DNA of 40,738 bases from Methanobacteriota archaeon (GTDB taxonomy: Archaea > Halobacteriota > Bog-38 > Methanoflorentales > Methanoflorentaceae), in the NCBI GenBank assembly GCA_003158275.1, contig PMIN01000064.1:1-40738 (forward strand), read 5' to 3'. The position numbers and the translations under genes are program-made. Positions 1 through 40,738 of this stretch are shown piece after piece (within the stretch, counting starts at the first letter, position 1; each line of letters begins with the position of its first letter). Below the pieces are notes generated by a model. The model made no database searches and was not told the origin of the DNA. It saw only the letters and a program-made list of their open reading frames with translations.

Positions 1-4
1 AATA

Positions 5-403: not shown

Positions 404-857
404 GGCGAAATGCCATCTCCCTACATTCCTCTTTGTAAGTTGTTATTTTACGTTAATGATGTAGATTGGTATAAAGCTTGCTCAACACTTACTTTTATGC
501 AAATGTTTTACCAATGGTATAAAGAAATAACTTTTGACTAAAGTCATTAATGTTTGCATGCTATGACCAAAAACAATGCTAGCAGCTCGGCGGCCCTCCT
601 TGTATTTCAATTGGTTATGGCGGTCGCTCATTCTCGGAACCCGTCAGGGACTCTACGTCGCCACCGGAATATAATACTGCCGTTTTGACGCGATCACAAC
701 GTGTACAGCAGAGCTACGAGAAAAATAGGCCTACGGCTTCGCGGGGGTATGGGCAAAATCACGCGCGAATGAATAGACGGACTCAGCAAAGACGGGGTCA
801 TATCCCCATCAACAGCGTTTTGAAAACTCGCTGACGTGAGCGTTAGGGCGCACCAAA
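404..857. other. AT-rich intergenic region with a 10-bp direct repeat
   Basis: No convincing gene. The decamer TGGTATAAAG occurs twice, at 467-476 and 515-524, 48 bp apart, in an AT-rich stretch. Read on the minus strand each copy gives CTTTATACCA, a good archaeal TATA-box match, so they may be alternative promoters for the minus-strand gene ending at 5. From 560 to 857 I see nothing recognisable. Confidence 0.4.
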
Positions 858-1082
858 ATGAAAGTCATAGGCTATGTGCGCGTCTCGACTGAAGCCCAGG
901 CACATGAACTTCGTGCTGTTATGATCCGCCTGGCCAGCGCACTTAATACCGTGCTACCCGTGCCTATCGCACTAGAGGTAGCTCGGCCTACCAAGATACG
1001 ACGATATTACGATAACCTTTTTTTTGTTTTTGGGGGTTTCGTTTTTTTACGATACTTGCTCTTCAGTACTCGCCACTCATGA
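858..1082 (+). pseudogene. Serine recombinase/resolvase N-terminal remnant
   Basis: The first 15 residues (MKVIGYVRVSTEAQA) are the classic N-terminus of serine recombinases: beta-strand 1, then the YxRVST motif with the catalytic Ser at residue 10 and the conserved Arg at residue 8. Full-length family members run about 180 residues or more. Here similarity stops after roughly residue 16, and the remainder (74 residues in all) ends in low-complexity Phe/Leu encoded by T-runs. None of the other expected catalytic-domain motifs or a DNA-binding domain is seen. I read it as a truncated, inactive stub of a resolvase or IS607-like transposase. It may mark an old mobile-element insertion at the left edge of the window. 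Confidence 0.6.
1018..1048 (+). terminator. T-rich tract, possible archaeal terminator
   Basis: On the plus strand there are T8, T5 and T7 runs separated by short G-rich spacers. Archaeal termination typically uses such U-rich tracts without a strong hairpin. The tract lies inside the tail of the resolvase remnant, so it may simply be part of the decayed sequence. Confidence 0.3.
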
Positions 1083-1266
1083 AAAAAAGATAGATTCACG
1101 AAAAAAATAAGAATAATTCCGCTAAAGGTAGAATACACATCGTAAAGTCGTTGCATCGTCGGTGGAGGGCCTAGTTGCAGGTCACTTTAAAGCGTGATAT
1201 AGTTTCATGGTAGAAATGGGCCCTGGAAGCACAAAATACGATGAAATGGCCCACTGAGGACACTAA

Positions 1267-1863
1267 ATGACCACGAAAAACAAGAAAAAGAGTCCCCCGT
1301 GGCTCCGAATACTTGAGATCAGCGCAGGTCTTCTGATCATGGCCCTGGGGGTCGCCGCCTTTTACCCAGGGGTGTCGTGGAGTCGGACAACACTCCTTGC
1401 ATTCCTAGCAGTCGCCCTAATTATCCTTGAAATTTTATATATCGTGCGCATATTTGCGAAAGGCATTTCGGGACGGCGGTGGCTCAACTTGATTCTGTCA
1501 GTTCTAGCAACCCTAATCGCCGTCTTGGTACTCGTTCTGTCCTTCTATGTCGTTCTGTCTTACTATGGATTTATTTTGATTCTACTCGACCTGCTAGCCT
1601 TGGGATTGTTCTTTGCCGGAATCGCGAACGCCGTGCGCGGCACAGTCGGCGGCAAGATCGTGGGCCTCTTTGGCATTTTCATCGGCGTCTTCGTGTTGAT
1701 AGACTTACATATCCCGGTCATCGTCGCCGTTTTCATATTCCTCTTCAGGTTAATAAGGCCAGTATTCCCCCTCTCGACTGACGTCGCAGCACTGATTACA
1801 CTGTCCTTGACGATCTTTGGGTTGGAGCCCATAATTTCTGGGATAGTGGGGAGATGGGTCTAG
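1267..1863 (+). CDS. DUF308/HdeD-like polytopic membrane protein
   Basis: A 198-residue protein with a short Lys-rich cytoplasmic N-terminus (residues 1-12) and about six hydrophobic helices (roughly 14-34, 40-60, 72-94, 98-121, 126-160, 175-195). The layout, with Gly/Pro-containing short helices arranged as paired repeats, resembles HdeD/DUF308 proteins. These are known as small repeat membrane proteins linked to acid resistance in enterobacteria and of unknown function in archaea. The ATG at 1267 is preceded by GAGGA at 1256-1260, a usable ribosome-binding site. No operon partner is evident on either side. The family assignment rests on topology and general sequence character only. Confidence 0.6.
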   Translation: MTTKNKKKSPPWLRILEISAGLLIMALGVAAFYPGVSWSRTTLLAFLAVALIILEILYIVRIFAKGISGRRWLNLILSVLATLIAVLVLVLSFYVVLSYYGFILILLDLLALGLFFAGIANAVRGTVGGKIVGLFGIFIGVFVLIDLHIPVIVAVFIFLFRLIRPVFPLSTDVAALITLSLTIFGLEPIISGIVGRWV

Positions 1864-2185
1864 CCTACTCGTTTATGGTAAAAAGTGAGTTTTGGACACA
1901 CAAAATCACATAAAAATGGCCTATTTGGGACATTAGCAGCCTACTTGTCCAAGGCATTAGGGCCACTCTTGAAACAAGGCCAAAATGCAAAGCCTTACTC
2001 TCTATTTGTGTCATTATAGAAACTCGCTTCCCGAGAACAGGAAAGACATAACCAATTGTCTTGAGGAGACCCAGGTTGACCTTATGCTGAGGCTGCAGCC
2101 AGGAGCACGAGAGACTACCTAATAACAACGCTGCTATGGCGCACTGGGATCCGGGCGAATGGCGCATTCAGTCGGCGGTCAATCG

Positions 2186-2672
2186 TCACGCCTGCAATTC
2201 CTCACGCACTATAACAATCAGGTCTGAGATTGGTAGCGCAGTCCCGCCCTCATAGCACGAGACGCCTTGTTCCTTCTTGGCGACCACTTTGCCGTTATTC
2301 TTGTACACTGCGCAGTCAGGCACGTGTGCGTTGACGCCAGCCTCAATTTTGTCAAAAATGACGTCAGATACTGTTATGATGGCATTAGTGCCTCTCCAAG
2401 CATCTGCTTTTCTGCGGTCTCTACGTTCCGCATTCGTCTTAGGATGGTCATAATTTCACCATTAGCCTCGCTTCTAGTGCTGACGGCCTTTTTTCTATGT
2501 CGCCAAGTTCGAGTACTCGCGCCGCAATTGTCCCGCGATCGAGCTCACTGCCTGAGCTGAAGTACTGGTAACGAAGAGGAAAAAGAAGATAGCGCGAAAC
2601 GATTTCGATTGTCTGATAGAACGTCTCTGGCCGAGCAGGAAGATCCACTCTCACCATTTGAAGGTTGACCAA
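2186..2672 (-). pseudogene. Frameshifted unidentified gene remnant
   Basis: Two long open segments in different frames on the minus strand read as plausible protein. The upstream one (2448-2672; ATG at about 2657) contains PARPETFYQTIEIVSRYLLF and ends at TGA 2448-2450. The downstream one (open 2189-2455, 89 codons, no start codon) contains NAIITVSDVIFDKIEAGVN and EGGTALPISDLIVIV, and ends at TGA 2186-2188. They overlap by a few codons, which suggests one ancestral gene of about 150 codons split by a frameshift. A third short segment in the remaining frame (around 2374-2450) also looks helical, so the exact reading is uncertain. I do not recognise the family. Confidence 0.35.
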
Positions 2673-2686
2673 AAGTTGATCAAAAC
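2665..2686 (-). repeat. Tandem 11-bp repeat, copy 1
   Basis: On the plus strand TTGACCAAAAG (2665-2675) is directly followed by TTGATCAAAAC (2676-2686). The reverse complement matches 21 of 22 bases at 37847-37868. It sits immediately upstream of the ATG at about 2657 of the decayed minus-strand gene, a position compatible with an operator or a dispersed repeat. Confidence 0.6.
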
Positions 2687-2913
2687 TTTACGATGTTTTC
2701 AGGGCAGGCGATAGCGGGCCGCCACATATTTGGAAGAAAGACCTCGACTTGTGCGACGCTCTGCGTCCTCAGGTTCGAGTCTAATGCGATTTACGGGGTC
2801 GACCGCAATCGAGCATAATCGCACGCATTTGTCTCAGCTAGCTCTCGACAGCGATAACGTTATAGCTACTGCCTTTGTTACCATACGTGACGTTCTTTAG
2901 GAAAGGGGGCTAA

Positions 2914-3177
2914 CGAACGCCAAGCGCGCGAAACGGTGAGTTTGCCGAATCGCTCAGCAATGAGCGAGGGCAGTCTTGCGGTTTAGGCCTGGGAACATAC
3001 GGCCCTGCTTCACTATATCTGCCGGGAGATGCACGTCGCAATCAGGCCAGGTCGACGACAAATCGCGGCGTTGATTCGTCTGGAGGCATCGCATCACGTT
3101 ATCTGAAAAGTCTGAATTCAACACACGGTCTCAAGCAGGTCTTGCTTGGTACGAAGTTGTGCCAATACTCCTCATCC
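2914..3177 (+). pseudogene. Start-less open stretch, possible gene fragment
   Basis: An 88-codon frame open between TAA 2911-2913 and TGA 3178-3180 has no ATG, but its composition is protein-like (for example GQSCGLGLGTYGPASLYLPG, then a basic RRNQAR patch). It overlaps the start of the CPBP gene in another frame. The Gly-rich, basic tail is reminiscent of C-terminal ends of transposase-type proteins, but I cannot assign a family. Confidence 0.2.
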
Positions 3178-3890
3178 TGATCGGTGAGGGTTTGCTGTTC
3201 GCTGGCTACCCAGTGCTTTGCGTCGGCGTGCAAGCGCTCAACATCGTCGTGATTGCTATTATCGTGGCGGCGCTGCGTGGGGAGCGGGTGCAGCTCGTCG
3301 AAGCGCTCGCTCTGGTATCGGTGTTTCGTGTCGTCAACCTCTCATTTGCGCTGATTTCGACCGTGACGATCTACTGGTTCGCCACCATCTACGGTGTGAT
3401 GTACTTACCCCTCATCTTGGTCGTCATCCACGAGAAGATGAGCCGGCGTGAGCTGGGCATCGACAACGTGCGTCGCTCCGTCGTGTTACTCCCGCTCGGC
3501 GTTCTTATCGGCGCTGACTTCGGGGTTATCGAATACGCTCTTCTTGCGAATACGCCGCTTATCCCGAATGCTTCGCTGTCAGAGCTCGTTCAGTTGAGTG
3601 TTGTAATGATCTTCTTTGTGGCGATCGTTGAGGTGCTGCTCTTTTTTGTCCTCCTGCAACCGCAGCTCATTCAGCGAAAGGGTGCGATTGTAGGCATCCT
3701 CATCACGAGCGTGATCTTCGGGGCCATGCACGCGGGCTACGCCAACGGCTACGAACTCGTCTTTGCTACCGGAGCCGGCATCGTCTTGGGTCTCGCCTTC
3801 TACGAAACGAGAAATCTAGCATTCGTCGTGGCGATCCACGCCGTTAACAACATCGTCCTCTTTGGCATGCTCGCCTTTTTGACGCATTGA
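3159..3890 (+). CDS. CPBP-family intramembrane protease-like protein
   Basis: A 243-residue polytopic protein with about seven membrane helices. The C-terminal half fits the CPBP (CAAX protease/bacteriocin-processing, Abi) fold: motif 2 FGAMH with His191 and motif 3 HAVNN with His227 and Asn231 are present. Motif 1, normally EExxxR, reads VEVLLFF around residues 157-163, so the first Glu and the Arg are replaced and peptidase activity is doubtful. The best start is GTG at 3159. The same frame stays open back to 3075 without an ATG, and residues such as WYEVV fit on directly, so the 5' end may be truncated or the start may lie further upstream. It stands alone, with an unknown substrate. Confidence 0.65.
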   Translation: MPILLILIGEGLLFAGYPVLCVGVQALNIVVIAIIVAALRGERVQLVEALALVSVFRVVNLSFALISTVTIYWFATIYGVMYLPLILVVIHEKMSRRELGIDNVRRSVVLLPLGVLIGADFGVIEYALLANTPLIPNASLSELVQLSVVMIFFVAIVEVLLFFVLLQPQLIQRKGAIVGILITSVIFGAMHAGYANGYELVFATGAGIVLGLAFYETRNLAFVVAIHAVNNIVLFGMLAFLTH

Positions 3891-3920
3891 CAAGAATTTC
3901 TAGCGGCTGAAGCCCAAGCC

Positions 3921-4250
3921 TTAGACGAGTCGTGCTACCGCGAACACTACAAACGCGCAGAACGTCACAATGAGGGGCACGTAGATGACCTGCAACGCTG
4001 CCGTTCTTTGTGCGCTCGAGGAGTCGCGCCACTCCGGAATCAAAGCTGCCACCATCTGAAGACGGCGCGTTGCAGCTGTATGTGAGTCACTCTTCGACAT
4101 CACATCCGCTAAAGCAAGCAAAAAGATGAGTACGCCGATTGCAATAATGGAGCAGGTAATGATAACACTGAGCGCGATCGCTGACGAGGTCGTCGACGAG
4201 AGACTACTCACGGTCGAACCGTTTGAAGTCAACGTCGAGATAAGCCCCAC
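3921..4250 (-). CDS. Small two-helix membrane protein, unknown
   Basis: A 109-residue protein. A Ser/Thr-rich N-terminus (1-24) is followed by helix 1 (about 25-48), a charged loop (49-85) with an Arg/Gln-rich predicted helix, and helix 2 (about 86-108) at the extreme C-terminus. The start is GTG at 4250. A good TATA-like box on the same strand (4275-4282, GTTTATAC read 5'-3') lies 25-32 nt upstream, the spacing expected for a leaderless archaeal transcript, which supports this being a real gene. It converges with the CPBP gene, 30 bp apart. I do not recognise the family. Confidence 0.5.
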   Translation of the reverse strand: MGLISTLTSNGSTVSSLSSTTSSAIALSVIITCSIIAIGVLIFLLALADVMSKSDSHTAATRRLQMVAALIPEWRDSSSAQRTAALQVIYVPLIVTFCAFVVFAVARLV

Positions 4251-4274
4251 AACACTGTGTATTGGCGCTCGTTA

Positions 4275-4282
4275 GTATAAAC
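4275..4282 (-). promoter_or_regulatory. TATA-like box for the 3921-4250 gene
   Basis: Read on the minus strand as GTTTATAC, centred about 28 nt upstream of the GTG start. Archaeal transcription begins about 25 nt downstream of the TATA centre, which predicts a leaderless or nearly leaderless message. Confidence 0.5.
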
Positions 4283-5187
4283 GGCTTGCGCTCTCTCTGC
4301 GCGCTCGCATCGCGTATTGTATTGTTCTTGAAACAGTGTTGTTATAACGCTGCGGTTCTGCGCCAATCAGCACAGAAAAGCGAGTGGATCAAATGCAAGG
4401 GCAAGCTGAGTGTAGTTCACGCGAACGAAGATGGCGTAGATATGATCACGCCAGACGATCTTTTGATGAGGGATACACGAAAACTGCTTATGTCATAGCA
4501 GATCAGATTGTCATACGAAACAAAAGACATTGCGCGCTAATTGGAGCTCAGGTGCTGACGCTTTCCGTAAAACGATCAATCTTACCTTTTAAGGCCTGCG
4601 GTTTGAACTGCCGAGACAAACTGCGCTAAGACGTCAAAGCTTTCCAACAAATGTTTGATAGACATTTGAAATAGTCTCAGATACGGCTCAACGAATGCGA
4701 GATATGGTTTTTCCTTACGTTAGATAGCACAGTTCACGTGTGATAAAATGAGGCAAAATTGTCGCAGACAAAGAGCTGAAGCTTTAGCCATCGGCATCGC
4801 TCTCCAAACAGAGACCGACGAAGGCTTCACTTTTTTTGCTCTGTGGTTCCCCAAGCGTTGAGAATGTCAGATGGGCGAAATGCGAATCTTGGCGTGAACT
4901 ATCGCTAGTTTAGGCTCTAGGTAAAGGAGCTACGTAACCTTAAGCCATAGCTGGTTGCATCTACAGGAGAAACTAACAATGACTAAAAAAAGCAGCGATA
5001 CCCCTGAAGGGGTTACGCACGTGCGATCTTCCTGCCACGAATGCGCAACGCATTCTGTATTGTTGTTTAGCTACTGCGAAAAAGGATAGAAGACCGAGTA
5101 TTACTGCACTGAAACAACTCAGAAGAAGGGTGATTTTGGCACGAATCTCACTGATGAGTAAGGGCAATACACTTATTTCGAACACAG
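4283..5187. other. Gap without a convincing gene
   Basis: No recognisable gene. A plus-strand stretch around 4380-4500 encodes a partly protein-like segment (SEWIKCKGKLSVV, then MITPDDLLM) with no recognisable relatives. A small palindrome, AAATGT and ACATTT flanking a 7-nt loop, lies near 4650-4670. Nothing else stands out. Confidence 0.4.
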
Positions 5188-6126
5188 CTACTCGCGTTCT
5201 AGGGTCCCAAATCCCAATACGTCCTTCGTGAACTGGAGAAAACGTCGTGGGTGCTGGAGGTTTGACCTCCGGAAGGGGTCGTATGCAAATGCCTGACAGA
5301 AGCACATCAGCGCCTTTCCACTTTGACCGAGCTTGTAATGCCGGTCGGCTAACCTGTTGAGCGTCGTTGCTTTAGCTTTTGCCGACATTTGGTGGTGCCA
5401 CTTACTCAGTGCATACTCTAGAACCTTAATATCCTCCTCGCAATGAACCCGAGTTGCCCCACCTTGGAACCCCCGAATGCCACAGGTGTTGCTCGAATGT
5501 GTTCGATACTGAACAAGTGGTTCTGGTATGAAATAAAACGCGTACTTTGCTGCTAACTCCAGATACATTTTATAGTCGTTTCCGTATTTCAAACTCTCAT
5601 CATACCTAATGTGGCCCAGATTAGCCCTCTTAAGGAGCATGTTCGAGTTCATAAAGAACTCCCACCGCCCTAAGAGGTCGTGGAAAATGTCCCCTGTTTT
5701 CTTTGCTGAGATGCCGTGGAATTCAGTCCACGTTGGGCATACCCGTTGCCCGCTCTCATCGATAATCTCTGCCTCAGTAAAAACGACCAAGTCCTCATCA
5801 GATTCAAGAACGGCAAGTTGCTTGCTAAGCTTGTCCTTCATCCAAACATCATCTGATGCGGTTTCCGCCAGAAACTTTCCTTTTGCAGCAGCAATACCAT
5901 CATTCATCGTCTTTGCGATTCCACAATTTGTCTCGTGGAGGATTACGCGCACTCTGGCGTCTTCCGTGGCGTATTTTTGAATAATTTGTCTTGATGAATC
6001 TGTCGAAGCATCATCCACAATTATCAATTCAAGGTCCTCGAAGTCTTGACCTAGAACACTCTCAATAGAGTCGGAGATAAACTTCTCGTGATTGTATGAA
6101 GCAATTACTACGCTAACTAATGGCAT
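5188..6126 (-). CDS. Family 2 glycosyltransferase
   Basis: A 312-residue inverting GT-A glycosyltransferase. The N-terminus MPLVSVVIASYN is the GT2 Rossmann-like start, IIVDDASTD (Asp38-Asp39) binds the nucleotide, and SDD at 91-93 is the DxD-type metal site. The C-terminal third is helical. It should add a sugar from an NDP-sugar to a growing lipid-linked glycan at the cytoplasmic membrane face; the sugar cannot be read from sequence. The ATG at 6126 overlaps the 3' end of a decayed aminotransferase gene (6113-6335), so the two were once a translationally coupled pair. The present promoter is unclear. Confidence 0.9.
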   Translation of the reverse strand: MPLVSVVIASYNHEKFISDSIESVLGQDFEDLELIIVDDASTDSSRQIIQKYATEDARVRVILHETNCGIAKTMNDGIAAAKGKFLAETASDDVWMKDKLSKQLAVLESDEDLVVFTEAEIIDESGQRVCPTWTEFHGISAKKTGDIFHDLLGRWEFFMNSNMLLKRANLGHIRYDESLKYGNDYKMYLELAAKYAFYFIPEPLVQYRTHSSNTCGIRGFQGGATRVHCEEDIKVLEYALSKWHHQMSAKAKATTLNRLADRHYKLGQSGKALMCFCQAFAYDPFRRSNLQHPRRFLQFTKDVLGFGTLERE

Positions 6127-6335
6127 CTTTATTTACCTCAGCAACATACGTGACTCGCCGTCGGCTAACGACGGATAGAGCGGAAAAGATGACTTGTAGA
6201 TCGCCCGCGTTACCATTTAATCCCGCCTCTCGACTACTAAATAAGCTTTTGCTTATGTACTGGAATTGGACAGCATGTAAGTGTTTGAACGCCGGTAGAA
6301 GGAATCTGCTTGCGAGCGCGTTTGCAGCAAGCGGT
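6113..6335 (-). pseudogene. Decayed DegT/DnrJ aminotransferase 3' end
   Basis: The minus strand here is a broken copy of the end of the aminotransferase at 7993-9087. Across different frames one reads GVQTLTCCPIPVHKQKL (intact: [18 protein letters not shown]), then FPLYPSLADGE (intact: [11 protein letters not shown]), then YVAEVNKDA (intact: YVAGALKDA). At least two frameshifts separate these pieces, so the gene is dead. The 5' two thirds are missing. The terminal bases, including the stop codon overlapping the downstream ATG of GT2, match the intact copy closely. Confidence 0.85.
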
Positions 6336-6435
6336 ATCTAATATATTAGCAGCTTTGAGTTTACCGCAGCACATAAGTCATTTGAATTGTTAAACTTGTA
6401 TGTTTGTTTGATCCTAAAAATATAGTGGTGTTACG

Positions 6436-7602
6436 ATGGAAATAGGGGGTTTTTTTGAATTTCCCAAATTTGACCATATTGATAACGGCGCTTCAACCTA
6501 CCATTATCTAACTAGCTTATACGAAAATTATAGTTTTTTTAGAGATGGAAGGCAGGCAATCAAAGCTGTCCTGCAAAATTCAGGTGAAATCAAAGATAGA
6601 CTGTGTTATCTACCATCATACCTGTGTGATTCAATTATCCAACCTTTCACAGAAATGAACTTAAACGTAAATCTTTTCGGTCACGAAGATCCTTTAAAGC
6701 CAATTTTGGATATGGACATCAGTAATTCAGTGATATTGATAATTGATTATTTTGGGACGGAATCTGTTTCCAACAAAGAAATTCGTGAGCTGTTAGACAA
6801 AGATAATATCGTAATTATGGATGTTACTCAATCAATACTTGATAACAACCGATTTTCGGTCACGCATGATTGTTATTATCTAGTTGCCAGTCTAAGAAAA
6901 ATTTTTCCTATCCCAGACGGAGGAATAGTCTACCATACTAACGAAAAATTCGCTGCAAGTGATATCTTCCCCATAGATTATGAATCAAAGTTGGAAGCTA
7001 TGGTTTTGAGATATTTCTATCTTAATGGAATAGCCGTAGATAATGTCCCTACCCATGACGACCAAAAGCTCGATTCCGTTTTTGAAGCCTGGTATACCAA
7101 AAAGCCTGAAGGATTTAAGAAACGTTTAGAAGCTGTAAAAAGGCATTATTTAGCCCTTCATTATGAATACGAGCTGAAGAAATTTCAAAATCAGATAATA
7201 CCCCAAAATATCCCTGCAATTTCGTTATACATATTGCATAATGTTTCCTATCCAAATATTATTAACAAAAGGGCTGAAAATCTAAAATTTGTGTACAAGA
7301 ACATCATTCATAAGGATCTATTTGTGTTCAATTTTGAAGATATCAAAAGTCCATTTTTGCTACCACTAAAATTCAAATCTGAAGAAGAAAGGGATTTCGT
7401 CAAAAACTCTCTAATAAAGGATGATATTTATCCGCCAATCGTATGGGACATAGAAGAATATGTCCCTAGCGAATACATTTACGAACGTGAATTTAGTAAA
7501 AGGATGCTAACAATACCAATAGACCAGAGATATACACCTTACGAACTATCAAAGCCCGTTACTATAATAAATCAGACATATCAGAAAATACAACAAAGCT
7601 GA
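6436..7602 (+). CDS. Divergent PLP aminotransferase-fold protein, AT-rich
   Basis: A 388-residue protein related to the fold-type I PLP enzymes of the DegT/DnrJ/EryC1 group, but divergent. Recognisable blocks are GRQAIKAVLQN (about 38-48), LPSYLCDSI, IIDYFG, VIMDVTQSIL (the Asp that contacts the PLP ring) and SLRKIFPIPDGG around residue 155-166, where Lys is the likely Schiff-base lysine. It probably modifies a nucleotide sugar or related small molecule for surface glycan. Composition is foreign: two 60-bp lines counted by eye are 37% and 27% GC, while a line in the neighbouring aminotransferase gene is 48%. It lies on the plus strand between minus-strand genes, between a dead and a live copy of the same aminotransferase, suggesting recent transfer. 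The ATG at 6436 follows only a weak GGTG site. Confidence 0.75.
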   Translation: MEIGGFFEFPKFDHIDNGASTYHYLTSLYENYSFFRDGRQAIKAVLQNSGEIKDRLCYLPSYLCDSIIQPFTEMNLNVNLFGHEDPLKPILDMDISNSVILIIDYFGTESVSNKEIRELLDKDNIVIMDVTQSILDNNRFSVTHDCYYLVASLRKIFPIPDGGIVYHTNEKFAASDIFPIDYESKLEAMVLRYFYLNGIAVDNVPTHDDQKLDSVFEAWYTKKPEGFKKRLEAVKRHYLALHYEYELKKFQNQIIPQNIPAISLYILHNVSYPNIINKRAENLKFVYKNIIHKDLFVFNFEDIKSPFLLPLKFKSEEERDFVKNSLIKDDIYPPIVWDIEEYVPSEYIYEREFSKRMLTIPIDQRYTPYELSKPVTIINQTYQKIQQS

Positions 7603-7992
7603 CAAAGACCTATTTCGTCTTTTTGTATGCGCCGCCTCAAATTTGTTTACTTACTGTCTATAAACGAACAGGCCACGGTCGAGAACTGAACCGATGCCGA
7701 TTTATGCTCTTATCTCCGCGTCTTGTCGACGCAGGTCAAGCAACGGGGACTTATTTTTAGTTATGATATTATGATTAGCGAACGTTGACACGACAGCGGC
7801 GTGCCGTCTGCCAACCGTCAAACACATGGTTCGAGGATCTACAGTCGTCATAGCCCCCCTAGATATGCGCTCTAGCGATGTGTCGCCGGATATTTCGTCA
7901 ACTATTATCAACCCGAAGTATCGAACTCTTGGCCTGCACGCTCTCAGTTGACCGAGAGGTAAATCTCTCGTGATTATAAGTGGGCATCAAAA
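7603..7992. other. Gap with a small inverted repeat
   Basis: No supported gene. A perfect 6-bp stem, CGAGAG at 7953-7958 and CTCTCG at 7965-7970 with a 6-nt loop, lies just downstream of the minus-strand aminotransferase stop. It could be a weak terminator hairpin, although no U-tract follows. A 69-codon minus-strand frame (7702-7911) has no recognisable motif. Confidence 0.4.
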
Positions 7993-9087
7993 CTAACTAG
8001 TGGCATCTTTAAGTGCCCCCGCTACGTACGCAACTTCTTCATCGGTCAAAGAGGGATAAAGCGGTAGCGAGAGGATTTCGTTGCATATCACTTCAGTGAC
8101 TGACAAGTCTTTCGCGGTCTCAAACTCTTTGTAGGCATTTTGCTTATGGACTGGTATCCGATAGTGAATCTGTGTTTGAATGCCTCTCTTTTGCAGGAAC
8201 CGTTGACACTTGTCCCTCTTAGCTAATCGCGTTACGAACAAGTGATATACGTGCTTTGCATAGGCTCTTTCGACCGGCAGAATAATGTCTGTTTGATCAA
8301 GTACCTCCGCGTATAGTTTGGCTATCCGCCTCCTCTTTTCGTTCCACATATCCAAGCGCGATAGTTTGATTCGCAGTACCGCCGCTTGCAGCTCATCCAA
8401 ACGACTGTTGACCCCTACACAGTCGTGATGATATTTCTTAGATTGGCCATAATTCCTCAGCGATTTTATTCTTTCTGCCAAGCTGCTGTCGTTTGTCGTG
8501 ACGAAACCTCCGTCGCCATAGGCGCCGATGTTTTTCGCCGGATAAAAACTGAAACACCCCACATCCCCAATGCTGCCTACCTTTTTCCCATTATATTCTG
8601 CCCCGTGCGCTTGACATGCATCCTCGACTACAGAAAGACCGTGTTCTTTTGCGATCTCAAGGATGTAGCCCATGTTCGCTGGGTGCCCGTAAAGATGGAC
8701 GGGCAAAATGGCCTTGGTTTTTTCCGTTATTTTGTCCTCGATCAGCGCAGGATTGATGCAATAAGTTTCAGGCTCTATATCGACGAAGACAGGTTTCGCT
8801 CCACACCTCACAATACTATCTGCGGTTGAGACAAACGTATGAGAAACAGTTATGACTTCGCTATTTTCGTCGATTCCTAATGCTTTCAAGGCAAGAAATA
8901 GAGCATCGGAACCTGAATTCACACCGATGCCATGCTTTGCTCCGATGTAATGGGAAAACTCTCTTTCAAACTCATTCAGTTGTTGTCCAAGGATAAACCA
9001 CCCATTTTCCAGAGTTCTTTGGATGATGCTGGTGATCTCATCCCCGATTTCAGCATATTCTCTCTTTAAGTCGACGAGGGGTATCAT
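7993..9087 (-). CDS. DegT/DnrJ/EryC1 nucleotide-sugar aminotransferase (FdtB/QdtB-like)
   Basis: A 364-residue PLP-dependent sugar aminotransferase. Visible features are NSGSDAL (phosphate cup, 57-63), [15 protein letters not shown] with Asp156 under the PLP ring, and [16 protein letters not shown] with Lys185 as the Schiff-base lysine. The family transfers an amino group from glutamate to a keto-sugar nucleotide. The overall sequence resembles the FdtB/QdtB group that makes dTDP-3-amino-3,6-dideoxyhexose, and an FdtA/QdtA-type ketoisomerase is encoded at 20157, so this is the favoured substrate by inference. I chose ATG 9087 ([11 protein letters not shown], the usual family start) over the in-frame GTG at 9120. 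The last five codons of an ancestral GT2 start (MPLVS) still overlap its 3' end. Confidence 0.85.
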
Positions 9088-9112
9088 AATTTTCGCAGAC
9101 ACTTCACGTCTT

Positions 9113-9238
9113 TTACTCACGACGTGCTAGTTTTCGCGGGTAGTTCAGTAATAAGAGTTGTTTCATTAACCCATCCAAATATGCAGCATCAGATGCTTCA
9201 ACGTTTATCGTGTTCCCGATCGACTTCGCTCTTTTAGA
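9113..9238 (-). pseudogene. Possible glycosyltransferase C-terminal remnant
   Basis: A 41-codon open frame ends at TAA 9113-9115, just upstream of the aminotransferase. It reads VEASDAAYLDGLMKQLLLLN, the pattern seen near the C-terminus of GT4 enzymes (acidic loop, then a helix ending in LL.N.). No upstream part in frame is visible. The rest of the 9121-9462 gap, including a T-run near 9283-9289, shows nothing else. Confidence 0.3.
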
Positions 9239-9462
9239 TCAACGTTATACTAGTTAGGGAAGAGTCTTTCAGTGACGTGGTTTTTTTAGTCCACGCCTAA
9301 AGTTCTCTTCACCAGTTTCTCTTCTTACGCGCTCGTAAAAGGAATTGACACTTAGCTCCTCCTTGTAACTGGGACACGGTTCAAGACCCTACGTTCTATC
9401 TGAATATTGATTCATACCTGCAGATCATATAGGATTTTAATGCGTCAACAATTCATTCACAT

Positions 9463-10569
9463 CTATGTATCGAACTGTTCGATCACTGAGATCAACTTCT
9501 CTTTATTGACTCCCACCCCATAATGTTTTTCGACCGTGTGTCGGGCATTTTTACCGACTCTCTCCATAAGGTCGCAGTCAAAAAGGGATTCATTCACTTT
9601 AGTCACTAGCTCGGACTCTTCACTAATGAATATATCTTGTTCGGGCGTGACGTGGTCCAAGCCGATGGCTCCTACTGTTGTTGTAAAAACCGCCAATGAG
9701 CACGCCATCGCCTCTAGAATCTTGTTGAGCGGTCCAGAAGTAGGGAATGTCGAAGCAACTAAAACGGCGTCCAAGCGCGTTAATTGCTCGACATAATCTT
9801 GGAATCTTTCAAGGTAACCGACATAGTGTATTCGCTCACTTCGGACCTGCTCATAGTCACACGCCCCGATAACTGTGAATTTGATGCGTTTATCAAATTT
9901 GTCCACATTCCTAAATACAAAATCCAGCGTGTTGGTGTTTGCGCCCCTATCTGTAGCGAATGGTCCAATTAAGCCCACCGTTTTTCCTTCATCATCTTCT
10001 GAGCGCTGAGCTTTATTCTCTCGACGCTTGAATCTAGTCTCATCGACGAAAACAGGGACAAGGAAAATACGCTTGTTGAATGTTGCAAAGTGTTTGTAAA
10101 TATCTGAGTTCAATGCAATCATACAGTCGGCGTGTTTTGCTGCAAACTTCTCGCGCCACTTCACCATCTTGATCCCAAACTTATCAATGGGATTCGGATT
10201 AGGCAAACTCTGCTCTCTCTCGAGCGATAAAATCCCGTGCGCTTCAAACACTACCTTGAAATTGCACAACTTAGCAATTGCGAAGTAGGTAAAAAAACCC
10301 CATAAATCGGCTGAACAATAAACAAGATTAAATCGGTTTTTTAAAACAATGGGGATCAATTGAAAGTTCCAAAGCTTTGACGGCTTGATTACCTCTATAT
10401 TGTTGGCTTCTCTCTGGCCTCTCCCTCGTATGATCAATGTGCAAGCATACCCCTCCTTTTGCAGCTGTTCAAATACTCGTTTTGCTCGCACGCTTGTGCC
10501 ATCATTCATAGAGATATCGTTTCTCGTAGAGATGTTAACCTGGGGAAATGCGGAGATTGCAATCTTCAT
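9463..10569 (-). CDS. Family 4 glycosyltransferase
   Basis: A 368-residue retaining GT-B glycosyltransferase (start ATG 10569). The N-terminal half begins MKIAISAFPQ and contains FEAHG, a typical acceptor-side motif. The C-terminal half has VGLIGPFATDRG and VIGAC strands and then GPLNKILEAMACSLAVFTT, the E-x7-E region that holds the NDP-sugar. It presumably extends the surface glycan. An in-frame TTG at 10596 would add nine residues; ATG 10569 is better placed at the start of the first beta-strand, with AGGAA about 17 nt upstream. It stands as a single gene with gaps on both sides. Confidence 0.88.
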   Translation of the reverse strand: MKIAISAFPQVNISTRNDISMNDGTSVRAKRVFEQLQKEGYACTLIIRGRGQREANNIEVIKPSKLWNFQLIPIVLKNRFNLVYCSADLWGFFTYFAIAKLCNFKVVFEAHGILSLEREQSLPNPNPIDKFGIKMVKWREKFAAKHADCMIALNSDIYKHFATFNKRIFLVPVFVDETRFKRRENKAQRSEDDEGKTVGLIGPFATDRGANTNTLDFVFRNVDKFDKRIKFTVIGACDYEQVRSERIHYVGYLERFQDYVEQLTRLDAVLVASTFPTSGPLNKILEAMACSLAVFTTTVGAIGLDHVTPEQDIFISEESELVTKVNESLFDCDLMERVGKNARHTVEKHYGVGVNKEKLISVIEQFDT

Positions 10570-11412
10570 TCTTGTAACTTGAGGTTCCTTTTTCAACGCT
10601 TAGCGATTCAGCGACCCCATGCGCTTTTCTGACCTTAGTCTATTGGCAAGCCCGATAAAGCTCTGTACGATTATGAAACTAACCGTTTGGGGCATATTCA
10701 CAAAATCTTGATAGTTACTATATTGAGTTAACATCAGTTTCAAGATTGATTCTGTGCATGATGAAAGTCATTAACCGTCAATGTTTTTGTTGATTATTCA
10801 TCAGAGCTATAATCTAGGTTCTTGTTTATTCTGAGGCGCAATGAAACTCACTATCCGGTATTTGTAAAACTGGCAGGCAATCGAGTTCAGGAGCAAAACC
10901 ACCTATGAATGCTTCGGAGGTTCAATCGGATCGCCCCTCAAATCGACTTTCTTGGGCAGCGTGAAATCGTTGAGCGCTAGTTACGAAGAGGGCCGAGTAT
11001 TAACGAGTGACGCGAATTTTCCTCAGTGTTTAGAGTTCTCGTTCAAAGGCCTCCTGAACGAAACTCGCAAAGATCAGCCCGCGTTTCCATTACGATATTT
11101 GAGACGCATCTTCGAATTACATAATCGTTGCGCTGGGCATTTTGGTGTCATAATGCTCAGTAAACTAAGCCTTCTCTAATTTTTGCACCTCAAGATATAT
11201 TCAAAAAGACGATTCACTGCGGTTGAACGAAATGACAGGTTTTACGTATTAAACGTGCATTGAAGACTTGCGCCCATATAGCGATCTTGGTAGCTGAGTG
11301 ACTAGAGATGCCGTATCAACTTTAAGGTTTATCCTGATAGCGTCAACTGATCGAACTAGAGGCTAACGAAACTGTAAGACGTGCGCCATAACGTGTCCTT
11401 CCGCGAACTAGC
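10570..11412. other. Gap without a supported gene
   Basis: More than 800 bp with no recognised gene. A plus-strand frame at 10952-11179 (75 codons, containing LRYLRRIFELHNR) has no family motif. AT-rich sequence at 10690-10830 may hold promoters, but I cannot assign a TATA box with confidence. Confidence 0.4.
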
Positions 11413-12873
11413 ATGACCCTAGAGACCAGAACCGTACGCAACATTGGCTGGACTGCAACGTCAAAACTTGCTCAAATGCTAATGTCAATACTGATTTCTG
11501 CGATCTTAGCGAGATTGCTTGTGCCTAGCGACTTCGGACTGATTGCTATGGTGCTCGTGTTTTCGAATTTTGTCGCCATTTTTGCGGGATTTGGATTGAC
11601 GAGTGCTATAGTGCAAAAACAAGAGATTAGTGACGAGACATTATCCTCGACTTTTTGGATAAACGTGGGCCTGGGTGCGTTGCTGACTGTAGCATTGGCA
11701 GGCTCTGCGCCCTTAATAGCTGCTTTCTATTCTCAACCACGACTGGCCCCCCTCGTCGTGTTTATATCCACGACCTTTTTCATAACTTCATTTTGCAATG
11801 TGTCTTACGCGCTGCTTATGAAACGCATGAATTTCAAAGCCCTTGCGATCATCGGAATCTGCGTAACTGCGATTTCTGGCCCCATAGCTATTTTCTTGGC
11901 TTTTTCCGGATACGGCGTCTGGAGTTTGGCTTGGTACACGGTTCTTTCCAGTGTTTTTTTTGCCGTATTCACTTTGATTTATGCTCGATGGGTTCCCCAT
12001 TTTTTGCTCGGGTTGCAGCACGTGAAAGGGATATTAGGGTACGGTGCGAACCTCACAGGATCTGTTTTCGCTAACTATTTCGCTCAGAACATGGATAATC
12101 TGCTTATTGGGCGGTTTCTTGGCTCCGCTGGCCTCGGCTTCTACAACCTAGCTTACAACTTGCTTGTGTTGCCGACGACTGCCGTCACCGACGTCGTCGG
12201 GAGCGTCATGTTTCCTGCACTTTCGATAATCCAACACGACAAACAGTTGGTGCGCAACGCTTATGTTAGAGCTAATCGCTACATCGCCGCCGTCTCGTTT
12301 CCGTTGATGATATGGGTGCTTGTCGCGGCGCCTCAGCTTATCCGGGTGGTTTACGGTCCAAAATGGATAAGTGTGATCCCGTTAATTCAAATTTTCGCGT
12401 TAGCGGGACTAGAACTATCGATAGGAGCAAATGTGTGGTGGATATTTACGTCTCAGGGCAGGACTGATGAGCAGTTCAAGTTGACTATCTTTACGACTGT
12501 TGTGATTGTTATTTCCTTTCTTGTCGGGCTTCGTCGGGGGGTCGAAGGGGTTGTAATCGCGTACACTGTAGCGATATATTTGACAGCGTACCCTGTTTTT
12601 GCCATCGCATTTCGATTGATAGACTTGAAAGTAAAGTCCGCACTGGCACCGCTGTGGTCAGTTACATTGGCAGCCTTCGCGCTAGGGATTGTTGCGTTTC
12701 TCCTTCAAATCTCGCTCGAGAGTCTGGGGGTCACACAAGACTTGACCATACTAGCCATCGTGACAGCTGCAAGCCTATTGACCTATTCAGTGGTCCTTTT
12801 TTTATTAGACAAAGAGCTCTTTATCGGAATCGTGCAACTCCTCCGTCAGTTAAGATCAGTTGACAGTGCATAA
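11413..12873 (+). CDS. Wzx-type polysaccharide flippase (MOP superfamily)
   Basis: A 486-residue integral membrane protein with 12-14 predicted helices. The N-terminus (TRTVRNIGWTATSKLAQMLM, then ARLLVPSDFGLIAM) is characteristic of the polysaccharide-transporter/WzxC branch of the MOP superfamily. GRFLGSAGLGFYNLAYNLLV in the middle marks the start of the second six-helix half. These proteins flip lipid-linked oligosaccharide units from the inner to the outer face of the cytoplasmic membrane, and it is the only obvious exporter in this island. Its start, ATG 11413, has no clear Shine-Dalgarno sequence. It is a single plus-strand gene between minus-strand glycosyltransferases. Confidence 0.92.
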   Translation: MTLETRTVRNIGWTATSKLAQMLMSILISAILARLLVPSDFGLIAMVLVFSNFVAIFAGFGLTSAIVQKQEISDETLSSTFWINVGLGALLTVALAGSAPLIAAFYSQPRLAPLVVFISTTFFITSFCNVSYALLMKRMNFKALAIIGICVTAISGPIAIFLAFSGYGVWSLAWYTVLSSVFFAVFTLIYARWVPHFLLGLQHVKGILGYGANLTGSVFANYFAQNMDNLLIGRFLGSAGLGFYNLAYNLLVLPTTAVTDVVGSVMFPALSIIQHDKQLVRNAYVRANRYIAAVSFPLMIWVLVAAPQLIRVVYGPKWISVIPLIQIFALAGLELSIGANVWWIFTSQGRTDEQFKLTIFTTVVIVISFLVGLRRGVEGVVIAYTVAIYLTAYPVFAIAFRLIDLKVKSALAPLWSVTLAAFALGIVAFLLQISLESLGVTQDLTILAIVTAASLLTYSVVLFLLDKELFIGIVQLLRQLRSVDSA

Positions 12874-26072: not shown

Positions 26073-28727
26073 ATGAAGCTCGAGACCCGCATCAACCTGA
26101 AAGACGTAGGCATAAAACAATTACTAGCCACGGTGCTTTCGCTTCAAATCGCATTGTGGACGCTAATGGGACTAAACGTTTTAGGAGTCTCGATCCCGAT
26201 TGTTCAGCCGCTTATAGGCTTTGTGTATCTCACTTTCGTCCCTGGGACCCTTATATTAGCAGCCCTCAGACTGCGCAACCTGGGTATCGTTGAAGCTGTA
26301 TTATATGCGGCGGGGCTGAGCATCACAGTCGTGATGACGATCGGGCTTGTAGATACCATTGTCTTCAATGCAGTCAACGTGATTAAACCGTTCTCTAGTC
26401 TTAGTGTCATTAGCTCGGTAAGCTTGGTGGTACTGGTATTGTGTGCTGTTGCCTACTTCAGAAACAGAACAATGGGCCATGTCCGTTACCCCCCCGGTTT
26501 GGGTAAAGGTCTAAACTCGATATCTCTTTTCAACACCGAAATATCGGTCCCGTTGACTCCAACGTTATTTTTAGTCATACTACCTTTTATCACAGTTTTT
26601 AGCACCTACCTTGTCAATACTTACAACGTACCTGTGGGGCAGTTTGCTCTTTACTTAATACTTGGTGCCGTTGTCCTTTTAATCGCGTTTACTAGGTTCA
26701 TTCCGCCGAAACTATATCCCTTAGCAGTTTTTGTGATAGCCTTATCGCTCCTATTTCAAGAGACACTTATCTCAGCGTTTGTAACTGGATGGGACATTCT
26801 GAGTGAGTGGAGCTTAGCTAACTCCGTATTGACTGCAGGTGCCTGGAATCCCAGTCTGCTCAATCACTATGATGGTATGTTAAGCATAGTTGCAGTTGCG
26901 CCTGTTTACTCCATCATCTCGGGCCTCGACCTCATATGGGTTTTTAAGATAGTGTATCCCGCAATATTTGCCCTGGTCCCGCTTGGCTTATACCAAATAT
27001 TTCGCAGACAGGTGGATGAGAAAATAGCGTTCCTGTCGAGTTTCTTTTTCATGTCGATCGTGAGCTTTTTCGTCGAAATGACTCAATTGGGAAGACAGGA
27101 AATAGCCGAGTTTTTCTTTGTTTTATTAATTTTGCTGCTCGTAAGCAAAGAGATGAACAAAACGATCCAATCAGCGCTTTTTGTAGTATTCAGTCTATCA
27201 CTGGTGGTATCCCATTACGGCTTGACGTACATAGCCCTATTTTTCTTTTTTGTGATGTGGCTCGTATTAGCCGTAGCACCCGTCGATGGATCAAAACCGA
27301 CTATGTCGTTATTACGAATTAAGAGGGGGGCCCGCAAGGACAATCAGATCTTCGTTCCATCCCCTGAATCATCCCCGAGAAGCGCTGTAACGATTCTCTC
27401 CATCTTGGTACTTTTCATTGCGTCATTTGCGTGGTACGCTTTCACTGCGCAAACGGAAATCCTTTCAATTGTCTCCTCACTCGGGAGCCAAATTGCAGGT
27501 TCAATACAAAACATGTTCAACCCTACATATAGCCAAGCCGTAAACATCGCGGCCCAACAGGCGCATGCACCGCAAGGCTCCATCCTTCATCGGGTAGTAT
27601 CCGCAGCCGACGCGTCTTTTTACTACCTCAACCAGTTCTTTATCCTAGTGGGCGTGTGCGTGGTAATTTTTCTGAAAAAGCACCGCTTCAGGTTTCAACG
27701 CCCCTATGTGGTCATCTCGACTACCGCGTTAGGATTCCTGATCGTTGCTATAGCTGTTCCTTATCTCAGCGCCTCTTTAAACTGGTCTCGGGTGTTCCAA
27801 ATTGCGTCGATCTTATTGGCGCCATTCCTCGCCGTAGGTTTCATCAAAATCGGTGAGGGCGGTAGCGCGACAATGAGTAGAGTTAAAAGTAAGCTCGGGT
27901 TTGGCAACTCAGCGCGGGTGAATCTCTCACGTTTGACAAGGTTGCTCGCCTTATACTTAGTGGTCTATTTGTTTTTTTCGACCGGCTTTGTTTTAGCCCT
28001 TGCAGAGGGCAGTCAGACGATCGCGCTAAACAATAAGATTGATGATATGCAGTTCAATCACCAGGAGATCAGCGGCGTCACATGGCTGGCCACTAACGGT
28101 GGCGCCATCCCCCTCTCCGGTAAATACGTCACCATATACCACTACTTCAACAGCGTCAGGTACAACGACACCAACGAAACCACCAACGCCACCGGCCAGA
28201 TTACCCTCACCCAGACCTTGAGCTCCGCCGGTCAAAACGCCTACTATGCCACCTTCGCCGGCGACGCAGCCTACAACCCCGTAACGGCCGGCGGCGTCAA
28301 CGTCAGTGTCGGCAGCAGCCAAGCCACCAGCCAAGCCACCAGCCAAGCCACCACATACGGAGTACTCACCACATCCGAAGGGAGCGTTGTTCAAACCATC
28401 ACCCTCGCCGCGTCCACCACGACCCCTGCAGTCGGCCAGCCCGTCACCTTCACCGCCACTCTCACAGGTGCACAGGTCGCATACGGAGATGAATACAGAT
28501 CAATGTTAATTGGAGCTCTCGACCCACCAGCAAAAGGGTTGATACTACAAAACACATCAGCTGGTGGTAGTTTCATCTTCCTGGGCACTTACAACATTGA
28601 ACACAATCAGGCTGACATACCCTTAAAAATAGGTGTGAATCCCGTGGTGTCTATACAAAATGTCACACCCTTTGTTAGTAACAAAAGTCTGATTTACTCT
28701 AATGGAGGTGCTAATGTATATTCGTGA
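26073..28727 (+). CDS. DUF2206-like archaeal membrane protein with inserted Ig-like module
   Basis: An 884-residue polytopic protein. The N-terminal segment (PLIGFVYLTFVPGTLILAAL, then EAVLYAAGLSI) and the overall pattern of about 14-16 helices up to residue 655 resemble the archaeal DUF2206 family, predicted GT-C-like membrane proteins common in archaeal glycan loci. Conserved blocks include a luminal GWDILSEW loop with acidic residues after helix 8 or so (Asp in GWD may be catalytic in a GT-C fold). After the last helix the expected extracellular end is split: EISGVTWLATN (about 665-675) is separated from VAYGDEYRSML (about 802-812) by an Ig-like insertion (residues 676-799). A lipid-phosphate-sugar transferase or polymerase role is an inference. 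ATG 26073, no clear ribosome-binding site. Confidence 0.75.
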   Translation: MKLETRINLKDVGIKQLLATVLSLQIALWTLMGLNVLGVSIPIVQPLIGFVYLTFVPGTLILAALRLRNLGIVEAVLYAAGLSITVVMTIGLVDTIVFNAVNVIKPFSSLSVISSVSLVVLVLCAVAYFRNRTMGHVRYPPGLGKGLNSISLFNTEISVPLTPTLFLVILPFITVFSTYLVNTYNVPVGQFALYLILGAVVLLIAFTRFIPPKLYPLAVFVIALSLLFQETLISAFVTGWDILSEWSLANSVLTAGAWNPSLLNHYDGMLSIVAVAPVYSIISGLDLIWVFKIVYPAIFALVPLGLYQIFRRQVDEKIAFLSSFFFMSIVSFFVEMTQLGRQEIAEFFFVLLILLLVSKEMNKTIQSALFVVFSLSLVVSHYGLTYIALFFFFVMWLVLAVAPVDGSKPTMSLLRIKRGARKDNQIFVPSPESSPRSAVTILSILVLFIASFAWYAFTAQTEILSIVSSLGSQIAGSIQNMFNPTYSQAVNIAAQQAHAPQGSILHRVVSAADASFYYLNQFFILVGVCVVIFLKKHRFRFQRPYVVISTTALGFLIVAIAVPYLSASLNWSRVFQIASILLAPFLAVGFIKIGEGGSATMSRVKSKLGFGNSARVNLSRLTRLLALYLVVYLFFSTGFVLALAEGSQTIALNNKIDDMQFNHQEISGVTWLATNGGAIPLSGKYVTIYHYFNSVRYNDTNETTNATGQITLTQTLSSAGQNAYYATFAGDAAYNPVTAGGVNVSVGSSQATSQATSQATTYGVLTTSEGSVVQTITLAASTTTPAVGQPVTFTATLTGAQVAYGDEYRSMLIGALDPPAKGLILQNTSAGGSFIFLGTYNIEHNQADIPLKIGVNPVVSIQNVTPFVSNKSLIYSNGGANVYS
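28098..28469 (+). other. In-frame circularly permuted Ig-like (Big-type) module
   Basis: About 124 codons, more GC-rich and cytosine-ended than the flanks. It begins in the middle of an Ig-like repeat (IPLSGKYVTIYHYFN, then NATGQITLTQT and YYATFAGDAAYNP), passes through a SQAT linker, and ends with what is normally the beginning of the next repeat (TTPAVGQPVTFTATLTG). One full repeat period is thus present but permuted. A 22-bp stretch, CTACTATGCCACCTTCGCCG region, is shared with the remnant near 37.7 kb. Confidence 0.75.
28317..28352 (+). repeat. Three perfect 12-bp repeats (SQAT linker)
   Basis: AGCCAAGCCACC occurs three times in tandem and encodes the Ser-Gln-Ala-Thr linker of the inserted Ig-like module. 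It could expand or contract without changing frame. Confidence 0.9.
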
Positions 28728-37541: not shown

Positions 37542-37778
37542 ATGACGAGGTTACGATTTTCCTTGCTCGGGTGCGCTTTGCCGTACGCCGTTTTCAGATG
37601 CGCCGCTCCGCCGATGTCGACGCGCATAGACACAACGATATACACCGACGCGAGCGCCAAGGTTACGTTCACACAGAAGTGGACGCCAGCCGGCACCCGC
37701 CCCTACTATGCCACCTTCGCCGGTGATAGGTGGTACAAGGCATCGACGAGCGTAGTCGCGACGATCATCGTTCATTAA
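37542..37778 (+). pseudogene. Ig-like domain remnant
   Basis: The last 48 codons in frame, from about 37632, read TTIYTDASAKVTFTQKWTPA, then PYYATFAGDRWYKASTS and VVATIIVH, ending TAA 37776-37778. This is the second half of a Big/Ig-like repeat of the kind inserted at 28098-28469, with shared DNA around CCTACTATGCCACCTTCGCC. The first half and any signal peptide are missing or out of frame. Probably a leftover of a secreted surface protein. Confidence 0.65.
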
Positions 37779-38180
37779 TCCAGCTCGGGCGCGGCAGTGC
37801 CACCCAAGGGCGACACCGCAATTTGACGGTTCTAAAAATGCGGTCAGTTTTGGTCAACTTTTGGTCAAGTTTTGTTGCTCGCGATAATTGTCGATAGCAG
37901 CACGCAGCGGCGCGTGAGACGATGGATGGCGATTAACCATGCGCATATCCCCGCTTCGAAAATACGCTTAGGCAACCCGTGCTGCGCGTTTCGGCAGCTC
38001 GCGCGATGCTTCACAATCAGCGCTGTGGGGGGCCGGCCGTGGCTCAAGACGTCAATCTGTTCGTCGGCCGCACGGCCTCGCTGCGCTTACTCCTACAAAG
38101 GAAATGCGAAAACGCAAAGGTAATTAAGTGAGCAGTGAGAAACTGCAGAGCTATTGATCCCTTTAGAAGCGAAAGGCGTT
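37779..38180. other. Gap before PGI, with repeat copy 2
   Basis: Contains the tandem 11-bp repeat (37847-37868) and otherwise no recognisable gene. No strong TATA box is evident for the downstream PGI gene. Confidence 0.45.
37847..37868 (+). repeat. Tandem 11-bp repeat, copy 2
   Basis: GTTTTGGTCAA then CTTTTGGTCAA, followed by a partial third unit, GTTTTG. It differs from the reverse complement of 2665-2686 at one base in 22. Confidence 0.6.
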
Positions 38181-39524: not shown

Positions 39525-40738
39525 ATGTCATCACCCCAGGATGAAATGAATGTCGGCGTGCAATGCTGGACCAAGCGTTTCAAGAAGTTCGCATTTTTTC
39601 TTCTTTTTTGCACCGTCTTGATCACTCTCACCGCTGCGACAGCAAATGGTGCGGATAACACAGCTCTTCCAACGAACGCCACGGCAGCGCAGCCGTTGGT
39701 AGGCGCGACGACGCATCCGATACAGTATTGGATTGGCTGCGCGCCGTCAATGGTCGATGACGGCACCTCGCTGACCTACTTTCAGCAACACGGATTCACC
39801 GCTGTCGTCGTGGTTGTGCCCGACACTCAGACGTACCAGACTGAGCTCAATAAGATCAAATCGCTTGGCATGACGCCAATCATTGATATTGAGATGCCCA
39901 TTTGGGACGGCGGACAGCTTCAGAGCACTCCGATAAGCAGTTTTTCTGGCTATTTCCAATCACTTAAAAACGCCGGCTGGCAGTATGTCGCCTCGGAAGG
40001 CGGCAGGACCGGCGATCTCGAGTACATGCAGAACTACTTCCAGGGCTACGTGAACTTCAACTGTGACCAGTGTGGCCTGTGGCAAAACGTATATAAAGAT
40101 CCGTTTACTGTCGCGAACAGTTGGGAGAGCTATTACCCATCTGAGTGGCCCTCCATCCAAAATGGGTCAGAGCAGGCCGCTGCGCTTGGCATCCAGAACG
40201 GCATCCTCGCTGGTGCGTGGGCTAATAGCGGCGGCGACAATCAGATATATGCTAACTCGGAGAGCGGCAGCGGCACACCATCATACCTTTCAATGCTTAA
40301 CTGGTCATATGCTAATGGAATCGGCTTCACCAGTTTTCAGGTATGGTGCGGCGACAACCCCAATGGGCTAAGCCAGTACAAATCACTAGGATTTGACAAA
40401 ATAGTCGCAAACCTGCAAACGTATTACCCGCCGACTAGTTCTGCCAGCTTGAGCCCCTGGTCGAGCATCGGCGGTCAACTTGTTTCGGGCACCGGCCCTG
40501 CCGTATCCACGCAAAACGCAAACAGCCTTGACGTCTTTGCAATAGGAACCGACAACGCTCTGTGGCACAAGTCGATGGACGGGTCCGCGTGGTCAGCGTG
40601 GCACTCCCTCGGCGGGACTCTGACCTCGTCACCCGCTGCGACGTCACCGGCTAGCGGCGTGATCGACGTCTTTGGGCGCGGCGGCAACGGCGCGCTCTAC
40701 TCTAAGCAGTATTCCGGGACCTCCTGGTCCAACTGGTA
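39525..40738 (+). CDS. Secreted barrel-like protein with DUF346/PLL propeller repeats (partial)
   Basis: The 5' 404 codons of a gene that runs off the window end. A signal peptide (about 16-43, FKKFAFFLLFCTVLITL core) is followed by a Thr/Ala-rich linker. Residues 63-300 look like a TIM-barrel glycoside-hydrolase-type domain, with acidic loops such as IIDIEMPIWDGG (Asp121, Glu123) and SEGGRTGDLEY (Glu158) as candidate catalytic residues. From residue 305 repeats of the DUF346/PLL beta-propeller type begin (WSSIGGQLVSGTGPAVS, DVFAIGTDNALWHKS, then SLGGTLTSSPAATSPASG), a fold that includes fucose-binding lectins. It probably binds or cleaves polysaccharide outside the cell. The leaderless TATA box supports ATG 39525. 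No family was matched exactly. Confidence 0.8.
   Translation, partial: MSSPQDEMNVGVQCWTKRFKKFAFFLLFCTVLITLTAATANGADNTALPTNATAAQPLVGATTHPIQYWIGCAPSMVDDGTSLTYFQQHGFTAVVVVVPDTQTYQTELNKIKSLGMTPIIDIEMPIWDGGQLQSTPISSFSGYFQSLKNAGWQYVASEGGRTGDLEYMQNYFQGYVNFNCDQCGLWQNVYKDPFTVANSWESYYPSEWPSIQNGSEQAAALGIQNGILAGAWANSGGDNQIYANSESGSGTPSYLSMLNWSYANGIGFTSFQVWCGDNPNGLSQYKSLGFDKIVANLQTYYPPTSSASLSPWSSIGGQLVSGTGPAVSTQNANSLDVFAIGTDNALWHKSMDGSAWSAWHSLGGTLTSSPAATSPASGVIDVFGRGGNGALYSKQYSGTSWSNW

Follow-up and report, generated by a model that had tools for sequence, protein, structure and literature searches.

A DUF2206 membrane protein of archaea with a putative circularly permuted Ig-like domain in its C-terminal part

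The window analysed here (the whole stretch of 40,738 nucleotides) carries a gene for a membrane protein of the DUF2206 family whose neighbouring genes form a glycan-biosynthesis island, with GT1/GT2, Polysacc_synt, DegT and FemAB-like members; Rfam returned no RNA family in the window. The stretch belongs to a draft genome (G000; 2.1 Mb in 252 contigs, 70% complete) from a genus that we regard as methanogenic, since MCR alpha is present in five of the seven genomes covered for it (the gene is missing from the incomplete draft G000). The reading frame of the DUF2206 gene runs uninterrupted through 124 in-frame codons (28098–28469) that split the DUF2206 match (Table 1). Family membership is clear from the PF09971 score of 176.1 bits, compared with a curated cut-off of 35.6; a search of NCBIfam gave no match, and a sequence search of solved structures found no relative of the host protein.

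Table 1 Coordinates of the DUF2206 gene and of the parts of its insert in the window.
Feature	Position	Strand	Details
DUF2206 membrane protein carrying the inserted domain	26073..28727	+	884 aa; PF09971 E 1.3e-51
Host part upstream of the insert	26073..28097	+	transmembrane helices and start of the C-terminal soluble domain
Putative C-terminal half of the Ig-like domain	28098..28310	+	aa 676–746; HMM 25–91
Closing linker, original C-terminus to original N-terminus	28311..28394	+	aa 747–774; ~27 residues by HMM coordinates; SQAT-rich
Three perfect 12-mer copies of AGCCAAGCCACC	28317..28352	+	encode most of the SQATSQATSQAT run
Putative N-terminal half of the Ig-like domain	28395..28469	+	aa 775–799; HMM 2–28
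Host C-terminal part downstream of the insert	28470..28724	+	DUF2206 profile 273–368

The DUF2206 profile is matched in two pieces, positions 3–275 (ending at 28106) and 273–368 (starting at 28464), and because these pieces are consecutive in the profile, the two flanks of the insert are contiguous in the family. In the alignment, insert-free homologues run from '..AAWLSNEKTN' straight into 'ATPVYADVYRG..' or equivalents, and in the remaining DUF2206 proteins amenable to alignment, members of this genus as well as distant ones, the 'WL' helix is followed at once by the 'VYADxY' strand. DUF2206 matches were found in 74 of the 393 genomes of the phylum, with a break at profile position 275 only in the insert-bearing subfamily. 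The last helix ahead of the insert spans aa 663–675 in the AlphaFold2 model; beyond the insert the host resumes at a conserved strand (aa 803–805, VAYGDEYR), and its C-terminal part ends in the family motif IYSNGGAxVYS. As a separate observation on the family, five DUF2206 paralogues of the same genus (L049, L054, L110, L035 and L050) have profile matches broken near positions 75–104, which suggests a long variable stretch elsewhere in the protein.

To describe the insert, an Ig-repeat HMM was built from seven repeats of tandem arrays in the same genome. In these array repeats the A strand (TQLTLTASNTTPAVNQ) comes first and the G strand (VTITV) last, and since the array ORFs on contigs C241 and C93 stop just past a G strand, the natural order of the unit is fixed. 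Against this HMM, the insert in the window matched positions 25–91 first (E 4.3e-17) and positions 2–28 second (E 7.3e-5); the orthologues from two other species of the genus gave 25–91 then 2–25 (G002) and 26–91 then 3–26 (G003). In all three proteins each Ig position is present once and in rotated order, with one or two positions missing at the very start and a small overlap (about four residues in the window), and the cut of the permutation lies in the B-C loop, after TATLT. The matches show a predicted Ig-like domain that is complete and circularly permuted. Only its C-terminal half was matched by Big_3_5 (PF16640; profile 31–87 of 88), with 22.8 bits, below the curated cut-off of 35.5, and a match limited to this half is what the permuted order would lead one to expect. 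Searched by sequence against solved structures, the insert matched nothing but a capsid protein (E 0.26). The first-pass annotation of this DNA had described an Ig-like module of about one repeat period, permuted and spliced in frame between flanks that are contiguous in DUF2206 proteins, with three perfect 12-bp repeats in a SQAT linker, and had called for a search for insertion-free homologues; the profile orders, the uninterrupted homologues and the 12-mer copies starting at 28317, 28329 and 28341 bear out this description throughout.

The linker between the two halves measures 27, 24 and 21 aa in the three inserts by HMM coordinates, the one in the window being the longest. Within the arrays, the distance from a G strand to the next A strand is 2–6 residues with one exception of 21 residues before a divergent repeat, so that long linkers are not entirely confined to the inserts. 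The N- and C-termini of an Ig sandwich lie at opposite ends, and joining the old termini within a single domain would need a span as long as the insert linker. The case thereby offers a concrete prediction, namely that permuted Ig domains require a lengthened linker joining their old ends.

An AlphaFold2 model of the host protein, computed from 31 sequences, reached a mean pLDDT of 83 and a pTM of 0.85. Strands were predicted at 678–680, 685–692, 695–703, 709–715, 720–728 and 740–746 in the C-terminal half of the Ig-like domain and at about 770–780 and 790–800 in the N-terminal half, mostly with pLDDT values of 70–88, and values were lower (45–66) around the loop near 731–738 and at the linker. 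When only three sequences were used to model the C-terminal part, strands over large stretches of both halves had values near 80 and the flanks were poor; Foldseek with this model alone gave no significant match, in a search that depends on the order of elements and with flanks poorly modelled. With the whole model, the best Foldseek match was AglB (3wak; E 6.2e-4, probability 1.0), followed by STT3, PglB and AftA, also with probability 1.0, and the TM-scores of only 0.26–0.40 against these GT-C matches mark the resemblance as distant. The model supports a distant GT-C (AglB/STT3-like) transmembrane fold for the DUF2206 host, and by extension for DUF2206. Two acidic residues that are invariant in the alignment, D241 and E245, would fit a first-loop acidic motif, which is no proof of transferase activity with a lipid-linked donor. 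The WWDYG motif is absent from the translated DUF2206 protein, and we therefore make no claim of an oligosaccharyltransferase. Since the host resembles AglB/STT3-type GT-C enzymes, its soluble C-terminal domain should face the outside of the membrane, and the insert with it.

The orthologues in the two other species show 63% (G002) and 60% (G003) identity in the alignment, and the identities of their inserts are 71% and 53%. Three separate assemblies agree in the insert, its site and its order, and no proteins other than these three orthologues match a profile of the insert from end to end; they are the three sequences from which the insert is known. The three inserts group together in a tree that includes array repeats (one clade, support 95/93). 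Together, these data show a single insertion in one subfamily that took place before the three species split. Another genome of the same species as the window (G100) is without a DUF2206 gene carrying the insert; it has only scattered matches of 66–80% to positions 1–12000 of the window on several contigs, and the order of this end of the window is thus not conserved within the species. Lacking both the gene and the conserved order of these first 12 kb, G100 is of no use as an empty-site control.

Taken as a whole, the locus very probably holds a complete permuted Ig-like (Big_3_5-type) domain inlaid in the extracytoplasmic C-terminal domain of a GT-C-fold DUF2206 protein. We infer a capture by recombination, in which a stretch of DNA one unit long, cut at the B-C loop, would have come from a tandem Ig array of the same lineage, by copying or by excision. 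Its in-frame integration into the surface loop that separates the 'WL' helix from the 'VYADxY' strand would predate the species split. A cut in a loop would place the two new ends side by side and so disturb the host fold little, while the original termini, far apart, would be bridged by a linker lengthened from 2–6 to 21–27 residues, in part through expansion of the 12-bp repeat. A junction microhomology in the window (GCCACT...GGTG) was considered and given no weight, being too short and only in part preserved in G002 and G003. By analogy with the variable IS, P1 and P2 units of AglB, we infer that the insert may sit at the periphery of the enzyme's outer face as a module whose most likely task would be to bind a glycan or S-layer acceptor or to present it, or to stabilise the soluble domain.

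A later event may have been added to this permuted insertion without being an alternative to it: after the original insertion, lineages could have exchanged the insert, or gene conversion could have renewed it. The closest pair in the insert is the window with G002 (bootstrap 0.9995), whereas in both flanks G002 pairs with G003 (>0.999), and the lowest dS is found for the window and G002 in the insert and for G002 and G003 in the upstream host part. However, a G002-G003 clade of inserts was not rejected (AU p 0.19, in a tree with array repeats as outgroup), and faster change in G003 would also explain the pairing. We see such exchange as a serious possibility, if a somewhat less probable one than its absence. 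Going further, the insert could be an exchangeable surface module, which entered once, became foldable in permuted order through its long linker, and was later swapped between species independently of the host gene, with a more diverse recognition by a cell-surface glycosyltransferase as the result; this broader scenario seems to us rather unlikely.

Under another explanation, there is no permuted domain: the two Ig halves would be remnants that do not fold, or a flexible spacer. The low-complexity, fast-evolving linker would agree with this, as would the fact that the structural evidence for one sandwich consists of predicted strands. However, identity among the three inserts is 73–88% in the N-terminal half and 49–70% in the C-terminal half compared with 30–57% in the linker, the sequence is conserved over the whole Ig profile, and the strand predictions given above cover both halves with mostly good values. 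The dN/dS of the insert is about 0.4–0.6 among the three species, and these comparisons show that it is maintained by purifying selection. A non-folding spacer is therefore improbable in our view.

As the first-pass annotation had stated, the codon composition of the insert differs from that of the flanks: in the window, GC3 is 0.77 in the insert, compared with a maximum of 0.60 among upstream windows of 124 codons and 0.36 downstream. The inserts of all three species have a GC3 of 0.71–0.78, most of the host gene 0.36–0.55, and the repeat parts of the genome's own Ig arrays 0.82–0.85. Because high GC3 is common to the three species and to the Ig arrays, codon bias does not date the event; it points to a probable origin from such Ig repeats and not to a recent arrival. 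The resemblance in codon usage and the presence of related arrays in the same genome could also be read as a recent, species-specific capture from one of these arrays, but this reading is refuted by the sharing of the insert among three species, and the insert shows a synonymous divergence (0.46–0.56) similar to the value for the host part (0.5–0.8). The closest array copy has 77% nucleotide identity over 165 bp, with no closer copy over the main match, so no direct donor is left. We consider a recent capture highly improbable. Of the annotation's proposal of capture from a tandem Ig array, for which it advised a search for the donor, the related arrays in the same genome stand, while a recent date and a direct donor do not, and the recombination itself is putative. 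Contigs C241, C122 and C216 of G000 end inside tandem Ig arrays, in their first or last few hundred bases, so arrays are under-represented in the assembly, and a closer donor could have escaped it. That a metagenome assembler went once round the cycle of a tandem array and spliced an Ig unit into an unrelated gene, which was the annotation's own candidate for a refutation and which a fragmentary 252-contig draft with several contigs ending in Ig arrays and an insert of one repeat period might call to mind, is practically excluded by the occurrence of the same insert, site and order in two other species that were assembled separately and have diverged at the protein level, and by the intact frame with a dN/dS below 1.

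Swaposin is a plant-specific insert located inside an aspartic protease sequence and, like the insert in the DUF2206 protein, lies within an unrelated protein. Also as in the present case, it is a permuted unit related to a tandem repeat array, here of saposins (PMC3320104). The two cases differ in that swaposin has the all-helical saposin fold in a plant protease, whereas for the DUF2206 insert an Ig-like beta sandwich is predicted, its host is a GT-C-like membrane protein from an archaeon, and the same genome also carries array repeats. An array-type unit, permuted and in frame within an unrelated protein, is what we find here, and swaposin is its closest precedent; the kind of event is already known. 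In potato type II inhibitors, domains span two repeats (PMC2259423), and tandem domain swaps are described for titin Ig domains (PMC6863430); there, as here, the C-terminal part of one repeat combines with the N-terminal part of the next via the inter-repeat linker, but within the array and not as a permuted unit alone inside another protein. The C-terminal domains of AglB and PglB have variable IS, P1 and P2 units on a conserved core (PMC3703281) and are similar to the DUF2206 case in that a variable beta-rich unit is added to, or inserted in, the soluble-domain core of a GT-C enzyme; these units are not Ig repeats and are not described in that paper as circularly permuted. A limited literature search brought up neither a description of a permuted Ig repeat inlaid in a GT-C protein nor any paper mentioning DUF2206. 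Natural circular permutants usually come to notice only long after they arose; in the present case, one can compare the repeat family that is the likely source, the permuted copy itself, relatives free of the insert, and the three species that share it. The insert would add a second fold class to the swaposin-type route, by which an array unit passes out of register into another protein.

A short ORF at 37629–37784 of the window contains a lone Ig-repeat fragment of the same family (HMM 49–91), apparently a remnant. At 39540–40738, where the contig stops, lies an incomplete secreted protein with a close resemblance to the N-terminal portion of the C241 protein (L021 592–2127), which has two Ig repeats at its end. 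An Rce1-like CAAX protease gene adjoins the DUF2206 gene in G002 (L064 1216–2346) and G003 (L065 3117–3848); in the window it lies at 3159–3890, about 22 kb from the DUF2206 gene with glycan genes in between. The G002 copy of this protease has an additional N-terminal Ig-like stretch.
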